Positions 814 to 5,282 of a stretch of 64,000 nt of DNA are shown here, piece after piece. Source of the DNA: Candidatus Pantoea edessiphila (GTDB lineage Bacteria > Pseudomonadota > Gammaproteobacteria > Enterobacterales > Enterobacteriaceae); assembly GCF_002933335.1 (NCBI RefSeq), contig NZ_PDKS01000004.1, positions 1-64,000 on the forward strand, read 5' to 3'. The position numbers and the translations under genes are program-made. Every line of letters begins with the position of its first letter. Position 1 is the stretch's first letter. The notes below the pieces were generated by a model, which saw only the letters and a program-made list of their open reading frames with translations, searched no databases and was not told the DNA's origin.

Positions 814-1422
814 ATGAAAAAATTTTATACAATGTTTATTGGAATACTCATCTCATTTAATATCTTTGCTGCACAATTCATTGATGGTAAACATTATATT
901 ACTTTATCGCAACCAATTTTAAATCAACCGCCAGTAGTCGAATTTTTTTCTTTTTTGTGTCAATATTGTAACCAATTTGAAAATCATATGATTAACTATC
1001 CATTACCAAAAAACATTAAAATAACAAAATATCATGTTGATTATAATGGAAAAGAATCTGTTATTACTCATGTATGGGCTATGGCTATAGCTTTAGGTGC
1101 TGAAAACAAATTAATGAAATCAATTTTTAACAGCGAAAAAGAAAATCAGGATATAACAAACACTAATGTATTGAAAAATATATTTATAAAATCTTTGAGT
1201 GTTTCTTCTAAAGAATATGAAGCTTTATGGAATAGTTATACAGTAAAAATGATAATTGATAAACAACAAAAAGCAGCCAAAGATTTTAATGTATTAAATA
1301 TACCAACAATATTTGTTAAAGGAAAATACATGATTAATATTAAAGATTTAGGTATTCCATTAGATAATAGTTCTATTAATAGTTATTTTGATATAATAAA
1401 GTTTTTAGTTAACAAAAAATAA
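814..1422 (+). CDS. dsbA: periplasmic thiol:disulfide interchange protein DsbA
   Basis: DsbA donates disulfides to proteins entering the periplasm and is re-oxidised by DsbB. The 202-aa precursor starts with a signal peptide (MKKFYTMFIGILISFNIFAA, likely cut before AQF or QF). The thioredoxin-like core follows E. coli DsbA throughout (VVEFFSFLC, KYHVDYNG, AWAMAIALG). The cis-proline loop is present (LNIPTIFVKGKY). The active site reads C49-Q-Y-C52 instead of the CPHC of E. coli. The central dipeptide sets the redox potential, so this enzyme may be a weaker oxidant. A GAGG-like ribosome site lies about 11 bases before the ATG. The gene precedes polA, as in E. coli, with yihF missing. Confidence 0.95.
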   Translation: MKKFYTMFIGILISFNIFAAQFIDGKHYITLSQPILNQPPVVEFFSFLCQYCNQFENHMINYPLPKNIKITKYHVDYNGKESVITHVWAMAIALGAENKLMKSIFNSEKENQDITNTNVLKNIFIKSLSVSSKEYEALWNSYTVKMIIDKQQKAAKDFNVLNIPTIFVKGKYMINIKDLGIPLDNSSINSYFDIIKFLVNKK

Positions 1423-1460: not shown

Positions 1461-2318
1461 ATGAAACCCTTAATTCTAATTGATGGATCATCAGCTTTAT
1501 ATAGAGCATATCATGTTTTCCCTTTTCTAATTAATAGCAGAGGTGAACCAACTGGTGCAATATTTGGATTCATTAATATATTAAAAAATTTAATTAATAG
1601 ATATCAACCAAGTCACATTGCTATAATATTTGATAGTTCTTCAAAAACTTTCAGACATGAACTGTTTAAACATTATAAGTGTAATCGTTCACCTATGCCC
1701 AATAATTTGCGTATACAAATTGATCCATTATACGAAATTATATTAGCAATGGGTTTAAAAATTATTACAGTGAATGGAGTTGAAGCAGATGATGTTATTG
1801 GTACTTTAGTATATAAGTTTAATAAAACAGGCATTTTTATATTAATTAGCAGTAATGATAAAGATATGGCACAGTTAGTGACTCACCGTGTTAATATGAT
1901 TAATAATATTAACAAAAATCTTATGGGACCGGATGATATTAAAAAAAAATATGGTGTTTTACCCGAATTAATAGTAGATCTTTTCGCTATTATGGGTGAT
2001 AGCACAGATAATATTCCTGGAATACCTAAAATAGGAAAAAAAACAGCATTGATCTTACTAAGAGAAATAGGAAATATAAAAAGAATATATTCTAATCTTG
2101 ATAAAATATCATCTCTTTCATTTCGTGGTGCAAAAAATATTGCTCTTAGACTTAATAAATATCGTGAAATAGCTTTATTATCATATAAATTAGCGAAAAT
2201 TAAAACAGATGTTATAGTGAATTCAGAATATGAAGATTTAATTATGAATAATATAAATACTTTATTATTAAAAAAATTATTCAATCGTCATGAATTTAAA
2301 AGATTTTTAGATAATTAA
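1461..2318 (+). CDS. polA: DNA polymerase I, separate N-terminal 5'-3' exonuclease (flap nuclease) part
   Basis: This 285-aa ORF is the 5' nuclease domain of Pol I, which removes RNA primers and flaps. It aligns with E. coli PolA from its N terminus to about residue 290. The metal-binding acidic motifs are all present: LIDGSSALYRAY, VEADDVIGTL, SSNDKDMAQL and MGDSTDNIPG. It ends at FNRHEFKRFLDN, exactly where the E. coli 5' nuclease domain gives way to the linker before the Klenow part. The frame closes with TAA at 2316, followed in the same frame by TAA at 2319 and TAA at 2328. The split is therefore fixed, not a single sequencing error. Buchnera is known to keep only this half; here the other half also survives next door. 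Confidence 0.93.
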   Translation: MKPLILIDGSSALYRAYHVFPFLINSRGEPTGAIFGFINILKNLINRYQPSHIAIIFDSSSKTFRHELFKHYKCNRSPMPNNLRIQIDPLYEIILAMGLKIITVNGVEADDVIGTLVYKFNKTGIFILISSNDKDMAQLVTHRVNMINNINKNLMGPDDIKKKYGVLPELIVDLFAIMGDSTDNIPGIPKIGKKTALILLREIGNIKRIYSNLDKISSLSFRGAKNIALRLNKYREIALLSYKLAKIKTDVIVNSEYEDLIMNNINTLLLKKLFNRHEFKRFLDN

Positions 2319-2375
2319 TAAAACAAATAAAGATGTATTATTATCTATTGGTATTCTTTATTTTTAATAAAATCA

Positions 2376-4199
2376 ATGAAAACATTAAGTTTAATTCTTA
2401 CTCAAAAAAAGTTTGATTGTTTGATTGAAAAAATTAATAAAACCAATATTTTTGCATTTCATTTAGAGATGAATTTTTTGGATATATTTTCTACTAAAAT
2501 TGTAGGAATCAGTATTTCTTTAATTTCAGAATATACAGCTTATTTACCACTTAGTCATGATTACGAAAATGCACCAGAACAACTAGATACTAATGTAGTT
2601 TTGAAATATCTAAAACCTTTATTTGAAAACGTTAAAATATATAAAATAAGTCGAAATATCAAACAACAAATATTGATTTTAAAAAATCATAATATAATAT
2701 TAAATAATATTTTTGATATTAATTTAGAATCTTATGTTCTTAATAATCTATCTGGTAAATTTGATTTACTTAAATTATCCAAAATTTGGTTAAAAAAATA
2801 TGATATTAGTTGTTTTGAAAATATTTTTAATAAATTTAAGTGTCAAAATAATTTTAATAAAATTCCCGTCGATATAGCTGCATCCTATTTATGTAATAAT
2901 GTAAATATTATCTTAATTTTGCATATAATAATGTGGAATGAATTACAAAAAGATTTACAATCAAAAAAAGTATTTCAAACAATAGAGATACCAATGATAG
3001 GAGTACTTTCCAGTATAGAAAGAAACGGTGTACTTGTTGATCAACAATTACTTTCAAAACAGTCTAAATTGATCCATAATAATTTGATTGAATTAAAATT
3101 ACAAGCCCATAAAATATTAGGAGATTCTTTTAACTTGTCTTCTCCTAAACAAATTAGAACTATTTTATGTAAAATTAAAGAAATAGATTTAAATATAAAA
3201 ACGCCTAAAGGAGAACTATCAACAAATTGCGAAGTTTTATCTAAATTTGCATCAAAGTATCCTTTATTAAAAATAATTTTAAAATATAGAAGTCTATTGA
3301 AGCTAAAATCTTCATATATTGACAAGTTATTGATGATGGTTAATTCTACCAGCGGTCGCATTCATACCTCTTATCAACAATCACTAACTGTAACAGGTAG
3401 ATTATCATCTACATCGCCTAATTTGCAAAATATTCCTGTAAATGAATCTCAAGGATTTTTTATTCGTCAAGCATTTATCGCAGGAAAGTTTAATAAAATT
3501 GTTTCAGCTGATTATTCACAAATTGAATTGCGCATTATTGCATCTTTATCACAAGATAAAAACTTATTAGAAGCATTTAATAAGGACGAAGATATTCATT
3601 GTGCAACTGCTGCAGAATTTTTTAGGTTGCCAATAAAAAAGATAAATAATCAACAACGCCGCATTGCAAAAAAAATTAATTTTAGTGTAATTTATGGCAT
3701 AAGTTCTTTTGGTTTAGCAAACCAATTGAATATTAACATAAAAAAAGCGAAAGAATATATAGATATTTTCTTTAAGAGATATCCCAATGTATTAACTTAT
3801 ATAAAAAATACCTATCAATCACTAGTTGATAAAGGATATATTACAACCTTGGAAGGTCGTAAGTTATATTTGGCAAATATAAAAACAGGTAATTGTATAC
3901 ATAGTAAATCGATAGAACGTAATGCTATTAACGCTCAAATACAAGGGACAGCAGCTGAGATAATCAAAAAATCTATGGTTAATATAGACAATTGGCTAGA
4001 AGGTAAAGACCGTAACACCATTAAAATGATTATACAAATACATGATGAGCTCTTATTTGAAATTCATGAACATTATATAACAATGTACAGTAAAAAAATT
4101 AAATTTTTAATGGAGCATAGCATACAATTAAAATCTCCACTATTAGTTAAAATAAGAACGGGATTGAATTGGAATGACATGTATAATCAAATTATATAG
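2376..4199 (+). CDS. polA: DNA polymerase I, separate Klenow-type part (decayed 3'-5' exonuclease plus polymerase)
   Basis: This 607-aa ORF, in the same frame as the upstream half and 57 bases after it, matches E. coli PolA from about residue 330 to the C terminus. The polymerase site is complete: motif A VSADYSQIELRI (D379, E384), motif B R428...K432...F436...Y440, and motif C QIHDE (H556, D557, E558). The proofreading domain (residues ~1-190) keeps its fold-level similarity but has lost metal ligands. E. coli D355, D424 and D501 correspond to H29, Q98 and N175; only E357 is kept (E31). I infer a polymerase without proofreading. The start is uncertain: no clear ribosome site precedes ATG 2376, so expression may depend on translational coupling or an upstream unrecognised start. 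Confidence 0.92.
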   Translation: MKTLSLILTQKKFDCLIEKINKTNIFAFHLEMNFLDIFSTKIVGISISLISEYTAYLPLSHDYENAPEQLDTNVVLKYLKPLFENVKIYKISRNIKQQILILKNHNIILNNIFDINLESYVLNNLSGKFDLLKLSKIWLKKYDISCFENIFNKFKCQNNFNKIPVDIAASYLCNNVNIILILHIIMWNELQKDLQSKKVFQTIEIPMIGVLSSIERNGVLVDQQLLSKQSKLIHNNLIELKLQAHKILGDSFNLSSPKQIRTILCKIKEIDLNIKTPKGELSTNCEVLSKFASKYPLLKIILKYRSLLKLKSSYIDKLLMMVNSTSGRIHTSYQQSLTVTGRLSSTSPNLQNIPVNESQGFFIRQAFIAGKFNKIVSADYSQIELRIIASLSQDKNLLEAFNKDEDIHCATAAEFFRLPIKKINNQQRRIAKKINFSVIYGISSFGLANQLNINIKKAKEYIDIFFKRYPNVLTYIKNTYQSLVDKGYITTLEGRKLYLANIKTGNCIHSKSIERNAINAQIQGTAAEIIKKSMVNIDNWLEGKDRNTIKMIIQIHDELLFEIHEHYITMYSKKIKFLMEHSIQLKSPLLVKIRTGLNWNDMYNQII

Positions 4200-4214: not shown

Positions 4215-4820
4215 TTATCCTTTAAACCATATATTTAGTTTTTGATAAACATTTTCAATGCCTATGTTTTTTATAGAAGAAACTATCTCTACTTCAATAT
4301 CTACTGTATTAAAGTTTGATAAATTTTTATTCATTATATCTAATCTCATTTTCCTTGTAGAAAAGTTCAGCTTATCTGCTTTAGTTAGTAAAACAAGCAA
4401 AGAAATATTTTGCTGATTTGCTAATTGAATAATAAACTTATCAAAGTCGTTCAATATACAATTGATATCTAATAATAATAATAACCCTTTTAGGTTTTTA
4501 TTTATTTTTATATATTCTATCAACGTATATTGCCATTGTTTCTGGTTTTTCCTAAAAACTTTAGCATAACCATAACCAGGTAAATCTACTAAATATTTGT
4601 TTTGCACTATTTCAAATAAATTAATTAATTTTGTACAACCAGGTGTTTTACTAGTACGCGCTAGATGTTTTTGATGTGTTAATCTATTTAATAAACTAGA
4701 TTTGCCAGAATTGGAACGACCTATAAATGCCACTTGAATGTTATACCGATCATCAGGTAAATAATTTATACTGGGAGCGCTTATAATAAAACGAGTATTA
4801 TGATAATTTAATTTAAACAA
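4215..4820 (-). CDS. engB: ribosome biogenesis GTPase EngB (YihA)
   Basis: EngB is an essential GTPase for assembly of the large ribosomal subunit. G1 (GRSNSGKSSLLN), G3 (DLPGYGYA) and G4 (TKADK) are all present, and the protein matches E. coli YihA from FKLNYHNTRF to its C terminus. No ATG lies near the N terminus. The open frame can begin at TTG 4835 or TTG 4820; alignment with the E. coli start (MTNLNYQQTHF) favours 4820, giving about 201 aa. It is convergent with polA and follows it by 15 bases, as in E. coli, but the small RNA gene spf that separates the two there is gone. Confidence 0.92.
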   Translation of the reverse strand: MFKLNYHNTRFIISAPSINYLPDDRYNIQVAFIGRSNSGKSSLLNRLTHQKHLARTSKTPGCTKLINLFEIVQNKYLVDLPGYGYAKVFRKNQKQWQYTLIEYIKINKNLKGLLLLLDINCILNDFDKFIIQLANQQNISLLVLLTKADKLNFSTRKMRLDIMNKNLSNFNTVDIEVEIVSSIKNIGIENVYQKLNIWFKG

Positions 4821-5282
4821 AACAGTATAATCCAAAGTAAATTAATAGGAATTCAGTATAACACTACAGATATTTATAAAATTAATAAACATTAAAAGTA
4901 ATTATTTTATTGTTTTATAACCGAAAAATATTTTTAAAATATAATATTTATTATTTTATATCTAATAATTATCATATTTTATCATATTAATATTAAATTA
5001 TCAGAAAATATAAAGAATATTTTAAATAGAAACAATTTAACTAATTATTAAAGTGCAATTTATGAATATTATTTTAGATTTATTTATGTAATATCTTGTT
5101 TAATTGTGTTATTAATAAATAATGTAATTTAATATTGTATATTATTGTTATCCATTATATGACATTTAATCTATTTCAGATAATTGATCTTTATATCATG
5201 TAGAAAAATTATTCAAATTATTTTATTATCACACTGGATGTGTTTCTTGATATTTCAATATTAGTTAAAGGAGGTAAAATTG
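4821..5282. other. AT-rich intergenic region where the E. coli yihI-glnA interval would be
   Basis: About 450 bases lie between the divergent engB and typA genes. In E. coli, yihI, hemN, glnG, glnL and glnA lie here. I found no frame or relic of these that I could recognise. The region must hold the promoters of both flanking genes, but base composition is too biased to name -10/-35 boxes reliably. Confidence 0.5.

Follow-up and report, generated by a model that had tools for sequence, protein, structure and literature searches.

DNA polymerase I (Pol I) is the textbook example of a single protein that performs coupled nick translation. In the stretch of DNA analyzed here, the first 64,000 nucleotides (forward strand) of contig NZ_PDKS01000004.1 of Candidatus Pantoea edessiphila (assembly GCF_002933335.1; hereafter the window), the place of its gene, polA, is taken by two adjacent open reading frames (ORFs), which raises the question of whether these are the debris of a broken gene or a Pol I still maintained in two parts. 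We consider it very probable that polA was split in the inter-domain linker long ago, in a fission predating the common ancestor of three species of the genus, and that this left two adjacent genes, one for a free 5' nuclease and one for a proofreading-dead Klenow polymerase.

The original prediction described polA as split at the Klenow boundary into same-frame ORFs of 285 and 607 residues, separated by a 57-base spacer and three stop codons, and the ORF list, translation and Pfam all bear this out. Both ORFs open with ATG (Table 1), and straight translation of positions 1461–4199 places them in one frame, with in-frame stops at 2316, 2319 and 2328. Pfam assigned 5_3_exonuc_N (6e-54) and 5_3_exonuc (1.3e-25) to the first ORF and DNA_pol_A (1.1e-131) and DNA_pol_A_exo1 (6.6e-15) to the second; the domain set of a PolA orthologue (5' nuclease, 3'-5' exonuclease-like, family A polymerase) is complete over the two. 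Residues 7–601 of the Klenow ORF align with chain residues 10–603 (of 605) of the E. coli Klenow fragment (E = 2.9e-174), a match to a solved structure that settles the fold, and E. coli sequences are ∼47% identical to it. The nuclease ORF reaches to about E. coli residue 290 and the Klenow ORF covers residues 327–928, so the lost stretch is the inter-domain linker (∼36 residues) and the break falls exactly where it had been placed. The locus also lies in the gene order expected of a PolA orthologue, dsbA–polA–engB, which we take to be E. coli-like, and has the same neighbors across the genus. Because the stops and spacer interrupt what would otherwise encode one polypeptide, we call the locus a fissioned polA and not an ordinary Pol I gene. 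Nor is it a solo 5' nuclease of the Buchnera type, given that the polymerase part is still encoded, as the single Klenow-type match in the 841-kb genome (a draft of 11 contigs). A search of a plasmid collection returned no close relative of the Klenow ORF (best identity among the matches listed, 47.7%), and a contig scan for relatives gave one distant SAR86 locus only.

The window genome (G000) was compared with five other genomes of its genus (G001–G005), six species in all. Two of them, G002 and G004, carry the same two ORFs, with Klenow proteins 70 and 64% identical, respectively, to that of the window. The spacers measure 57 bases in the window, 79 in G002 and 41 in G004, with three different frame relations. 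A homologous methionine corresponding to E. coli residue 327 opens the Klenow ORF in all three species, and the three have the substitution D424Q in common, as expected of a shared, vertically inherited break.

Of the key motifs said to persist in both halves, those of the 5' nuclease and the polymerase are indeed kept, but the 3'-5' exonuclease site within the Klenow half is lost. With residue roles that we take as standard, all 11 listed 5'-nuclease residues are present in 6/6 species of the genus, and all 13 listed polymerase-site residues (D705, D882 and others) in 3/3 Klenow ORFs. Within the proofreading tetrad (D355, E357, D424, D501), the three aspartates are lost in all three Klenow ORFs and E357 is present in two, including that of the window, whose substitutions are D355H, D424Q and D501N. 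The second protein is thus predicted to resemble an exonuclease-minus Klenow enzyme, and because D424Q is common to all three species, proofreading was probably lost no later than the split. Tetrad substitutions are reported in about half of PolA1 enzymes (PMC12926913), and damage to the tetrad is therefore compatible with PolA orthology.

Both halves are open and under purifying selection in the three species. Over the three pairs of G000, G002 and G004, the ratio of nonsynonymous to synonymous divergence (dN/dS; NG86) was 0.27, 0.28 and 0.26 for the Klenow ORF and 0.24, 0.29 and 0.29 for the nuclease ORF, with 0.13–0.38 for ten neighbor genes in the same species, all of these being approximate values at a dS of 0.5–0.9, near saturation. 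The original prediction had named a dN/dS near 1 in one half as the mark of a pseudogene; both halves lie far from 1, and the Klenow ORF has neither internal stops nor frameshifts. In 1000 runs of a neutral simulation of the Klenow ORF, with the rate set to the raw synonymous divergence between G000 and G002 (0.453 per site), a mean of 48 stops accumulated (minimum 27), as against the observed zero.

Because of the shared methionine and D424Q, the three different frame relations, the dN/dS values, the zero stops and the kept residues, we read the locus as one old fission with two constrained genes and no conserved recoding. The split would then be a working two-protein state of Pol I, often preceding polymerase loss, in which both proteins are presumably produced and the work would be divided between them. 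Most likely both enzymes would meet in trans at shared nicks, with strand displacement and gap filling by the polymerase, cutting of the flap or RNA primer by the free nuclease, and sealing by ligase. In favor of this reading, an E. coli strain engineered to produce the two domains as separate proteins is reported to be little affected in viability, and in E. coli the substitution D424A showed little or no effect wherever it was tested (PMC3686724). Elsewhere in the genus the gene for the polymerase would later have decayed or vanished, the nuclease staying behind. The original suggestion of a stable fission is upheld in that the same split occurs in G002 and G004 with purifying selection and intact nuclease and polymerase residues; as an oddity of this locus it is not, the same state recurring in 11 of 42 reduced relatives and in one larger genome (G068).

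Several observations weigh against this reading, besides the near-saturated dS. Divided by part, the Klenow ORF gave a dN/dS of 0.23–0.26 for the polymerase and 0.29–0.44 for the exonuclease (the boundary, at Klenow residue 190, was our choice and is also used in Table 1). The ratio of polymerase to nuclease distance was 1.02–1.40 in the genus vs. 0.74–1.24 in 12 full-length pairs (median 0.92), and 0.64–1.40 (median 1.02) over nine split pairs, so the polymerase half may have been relaxed after the split, at most slightly. A Shine-Dalgarno-like motif, present at 18 of the 44 ORFs in the window, is missing at both ORF starts. The Klenow half is missing altogether in 3/6 species and is hence dispensable in this lifestyle. 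Finally, the E. coli polA-split strain, whose split gene is chromosomal, is not wild type: it showed ∼25-fold lower Red recombination with a double-stranded cassette, poor plating of lambda red mutants and a partial Feb phenotype (PMC3686724).

The state of polA in the wider family was surveyed in 295 genomes sampled from the GTDB family, 243 of which had a Klenow match (32 non-matching genomes were unlisted); weaker matches were not placed, and splits in larger genomes could thus be missed. Of the matching genomes no larger than 1.8 Mb we took 42, namely all except G000 and G004, which were already known, and G109, which was overlooked and examined later. G033 (49% complete, both halves in pieces) was excluded as likely error-rich. 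PolA was one long frame in 26 of these, two open ORFs broken at the linker in 11 (G012, G087, G120, G121, G124, G164, G232, G233, G253, G305, G306), and in pieces or ruins in five (G015, G034, G084, G149, G209). One gene counted as a long frame, that of G023, is broken near the start of the nuclease part, with the Klenow part open. A further 12 genomes, chosen by hand to span 1.6–3.3 Mb, added the split in G068 (2.4 Mb), found only there, and a break inside the nuclease part in G175. Counting the three species of the window's genus, there are 15 split genes in total. In G175 (3.1 Mb) the nuclease part consists of overlapping frames ahead of an open Klenow part, for which an error and a real lesion are both possible; in G015 the nuclease, the exonuclease part and the polymerase part of polA are three pieces whose frames are separate or overlap.

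In a 46-taxon polA tree (FastTree; G068 left out), the 14 split taxa form eight maximal all-split clades, which implies eight split events if re-fusion is disallowed, and G012, G124 and G164 each adjoin full-length relatives. Placement of fast-evolving taxa may suffer from long-branch attraction, and we infer six events as the cautious number. Selection on both halves is not peculiar to the window's genus: in two other multi-species split genera dN/dS was 0.26–0.39 and 0.30–0.49 for the Klenow ORF and 0.30–0.36 and 0.29–0.49 for the nuclease ORF. The split in the window is one of several parallel fissions and probably an intermediate on the way to the solo 5' nucleases found in smaller genomes.

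Within this family sample, genome size cleanly separates damaged from intact proofreading. Among genomes no larger than 2.0 Mb, the tetrad was damaged in 40/40 polA genes examined (14 split and 26 full-length, at least one residue being lost in 26/26 of the latter), and among those of at least 2.1 Mb it was intact in 35/35 others; the split polA of the 2.4-Mb G068 is also damaged. Even within one genus, the gene of G066 (1.4 Mb) is damaged whereas that of G202 (2.2 Mb) is intact. All four residues were kept at 25 of 27 loci of a first comparison set (the exceptions being the reduced genomes G018 and G013) and in 10 of the 12 hand-picked genomes (G175 among the ten; exceptions G109 and the split G068). 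Residue calls in divergent sequences depend on automatic alignment, and two long frames, G023 and G274, were left out of the check. At least one tetrad residue is lost in 15/15 split genes, and the polymerase site is intact in all of them, which suggests that proofreading is the first of the three Pol I activities to go. Across bacteria, proofreading inactivation is reported to be unrelated to genome size (PMC12926913).

These counts bear on the best-surviving alternative, that the freed, proofreading-dead Klenow enzyme took on a new specialized job, such as lesion bypass, instead of gap filling. Its retention under selection despite the lost exonuclease site would fit such a change, as would the failure to find UvrB in any of the six species of the genus, where gap filling in nucleotide excision repair is probably gone. 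However, the listed polymerase residues are unchanged, and proofreading is damaged in every full-length polA examined in genomes no larger than 2.0 Mb, so that no new role is required to explain its loss; we regard a change of job as unlikely. A link between Klenow retention and nucleotide excision repair was considered and rejected: UvrB (PF12344) was matched in 4/44 genomes, one of these (G082) by a partial match that covers 23 of 43 positions and contains a stop, and in 0/6 species of the genus, whether they keep the Klenow half or not.

Half of the genus has lost the polymerase. Genome searches of G001, G003 and G005 found the nuclease and no Klenow match. A 697-base gap before engB in G005 holds a collinear Klenow relic, a claim based on a controlled protein-level match of 41.2 bits, against 27.3 bits for the best of 200 first-order Markov control sequences. 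The corresponding gaps in G001 and G003, of 189 and 142 bases, gave no significant protein-level Klenow match. Nucleotide BLAST of these AT-rich gaps against the Klenow gene produced many overlapping, uncontrolled matches, which were not used; with one of them, in the G001 gap, at E = 9e-7, a short relic there is possible. A concatenated tree of 11 proteins places G003 outside the other five species (support 100) and pairs G000 with G002 (100), the branching order of G001, G004 and G005 being weak (55–60). From the placement of G001, G003 and G005, the polymerase was probably lost two or three times in the genus. RNase HI and RecA were found in 6/6 species, Klenow keepers and losers alike.

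Such losses invite the view that the Klenow ORF of the window is a young pseudogene, recently broken and intact in looks only; the dead proofreading site and the slightly raised polymerase/nuclease ratio of the G000–G002 pair point the same way. We nevertheless judge this quite improbable. The break is common to three species whose Klenow proteins differ from that of the window at 30 and 36% of residues and are all open, every listed polymerase residue is kept at a dN/dS of 0.26–0.28, and decaying copies look different, with stops and frameshifts in G034, G084 and G209 and an eroded relic in G005.

Recoding that still yields one fused Pol I, through stop readthrough, frameshifting or slippage along an A/T run, is less probable again and very improbable. 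The Klenow reading frame of G004 overlaps the nuclease ORF at its end, and the two frames overlap by 19–68 bases in six genomes of other genera, such that one slip could fuse them there. A lysine run stands at the beginning of the Klenow frame of G121 and G306, which lacks a convincing start codon, and a slippage-dependent fused product is possible in these two. In the window, however, three in-frame stops separate ORFs of the same frame, and in G002 stops close both the nuclease and the Klenow frames ahead of the Klenow start. Frame relation and spacer length vary across the three sister species, whose Klenow ORFs open with the shared methionine, and readthrough or slippage is therefore not conserved; no constant frame relation with a slip or readthrough site was found among them. 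In 3/3 species of another genus (G232, G305 and G120), an ATG in the Klenow frame precedes the stop of the nuclease ORF, and this overlap suggests that the two are translationally coupled. Assembly or sequencing error is a negligible prospect even for a draft genome, in that one indel cannot give three stops and the loss of ∼36 linker residues, and the comparison with related symbionts proposed at the outset turned up a comparable state in two other genomes of the genus and in other genera.

Returning to the reading of an old fission into two working genes, a broader proposal, which we hold tentatively and regard as possible but somewhat doubtful, is that fission usually serves these symbionts as the gateway to loss of the Pol I polymerase: proofreading dies, the linker breaks, and the freed polymerase decays, the end state being the solo 5' nuclease of Buchnera-like genomes. 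Under this proposal the polymerase site cannot decay inside the fused enzyme, because a full-length Pol I with a dead site is toxic. D140A and D705A could not be established in E. coli and appear lethal (for D705A, in MG1655), and strains with only one of the two PolA parts reached lower cell densities and viabilities (PMC3686724). In full-length polA the polymerase site is undamaged, all 12 listed residues being present in 32/32 genes of the tree set and 10/10 of the hand-picked set. The nuclease ORFs of five genomes with Klenow relics (G005, G034, G084, G149, G209) end in the linker, 4–16 residues past the last E. coli-aligned residue; in G034 and G084 the Klenow sequence is nearly whole, but in pieces, and the relic of G149 (E = 3.8e-7, ten stops) was not recovered at the threshold of a second search. 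We also searched 19 genomes without a Klenow partner, four of them relic genomes, and matched the nuclease in 18, with frames much like those of the relic genomes in length: open frames of 287–321 codons in 15, one of 264 in G106, and with a TGA inside in G081 and G131. The breaks in relic genomes and the frame lengths of solo nucleases, together with the literature, suggest loss of proofreading, then the split, then polymerase loss. Lesions outside the linker count against the gateway, namely those in the nuclease part of G023 and G175 and that in G015, which is also broken between its exonuclease and polymerase parts.

Set beside known systems, the locus has the domains, the 5'-nuclease and polymerase residues and the boundary of E. 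coli PolA and its classical fragments, but E. coli makes one protein, whereas the window has two genes, with the ∼36-residue linker gone and proofreading lost. The E. coli polA-split strain likewise encodes nuclease and Klenow parts separately at one locus, although it is laboratory-made, with a break at codon 324, overlapping stop and start codons and intact proofreading (PMC3686724). Among symbionts, polA 'frameshifts' that usually separate the two parts are listed as annotation issues for Ca. Ishikawaella capsulata and Ca. Pantoea carbekii, in a section with no test of selection or function (PMC6403173). G087, which we take to be Ishikawaella on the strength of a 100% identical plasmid RepB, has its polA broken at this linker too, into a nuclease frame of 301 codons and a Klenow frame of 621; unlike those of the window, the two frames overlap instead of lying apart. 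The original remark that Buchnera keeps only the first half is broadly right, 16 of 18 Buchnera being reported with the 5'-nuclease part only and two with full-length PolA (PMC6403173). Among 81 endosymbionts in that study, 23 had the 5'-nuclease part only and 29 neither part, and polymerase-part losses are also described in Cardinium (PMC12842512). The Buchnera-type nuclease is encoded alone, as in G001, G003 and G005 (PMC6403173, PMC12926913), whereas the window still has a constrained polymerase gene. In Bacillus subtilis a free flap endonuclease, FenA, works beside a Pol I without proofreading, and the polymerase part of Pol I works beside it and rescues a polA deletion; fenA, however, is additional to an intact polA and not the N-terminus of a fissioned one (PMC10191290). 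Fission of alaS with alaXp in Portiera is a similar split of a two-domain symbiont gene, with one part lost in some strains, albeit of another gene in another lineage (PMC5322561).

A natural split polA as a stable working state was not described in the openly accessible literature searched. Natural lineages with separated, selected halves suggest that coupling in one protein is dispensable, and a split polA could plausibly be the intermediate that was missing between full-length Pol I and the solo 5' nucleases that many symbionts have. Related symbionts suggest that the split seen in this insect symbiont is a recurrent, working stage toward loss of the copying half. As one genus shows the series split, ruin and gone, the order of events is testable.

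Table 1. Positions of the split polA, its parts and its flanking genes in the window.
Feature	Position	Strand	Evidence
5'-nuclease gene (PolA.1-type, flap endo/exonuclease), 285 aa	1461..2318	+	ORF; PF02739, PF01367
Spacer, 57 bases, with further in-frame stops at 2319 and 2328	2319..2375	+	Translation
Klenow-type DNA polymerase gene (PolA.2), 607 aa	2376..4199	+	ORF; PF00476, PF01612
3'-5' exonuclease domain of Klenow ORF, catalytic aspartates lost (D355H, D424Q, D501N)	2376..2945	+	Residue alignment
Polymerase domain, 13/13 listed active-site residues present	2946..4196	+	Residue alignment; PF00476 at residues 224–601
dsbA-like gene, upstream syntenic marker	814..1422	+	PF01323
engB/yihA-like GTPase gene, downstream syntenic marker	4215..4835	-	PF01926

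The window appears to begin at the end of an rRNA operon. The genes that follow are mobA-like, dsbA-like, the nuclease ORF, the Klenow ORF, engB-like, typA-like and recG-like, in that order; names beyond Pfam, including engB for the GTPase gene, are our assumption.

One further contig of the window genome, C1 (13,174 bases), is a probable plasmid with a cupin gene and repB, and carries genes that we take to be gdhA-, thiC-, thiE-, thiF-, thiG-, thiH- and thiD-like. No match to the ast genes was found on the three contigs examined. The RepB of C1 is 76% identical to that of the Ishikawaella plasmid pAst, and a relative of pAst RepB was matched in all six species of the genus, in two pieces in G002. 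A stinkbug gut symbiont close to Ishikawaella is therefore the most likely source of the window. In G087, which the database places in another genus, the RepB identical to that of pAst also lies at the same coordinates.

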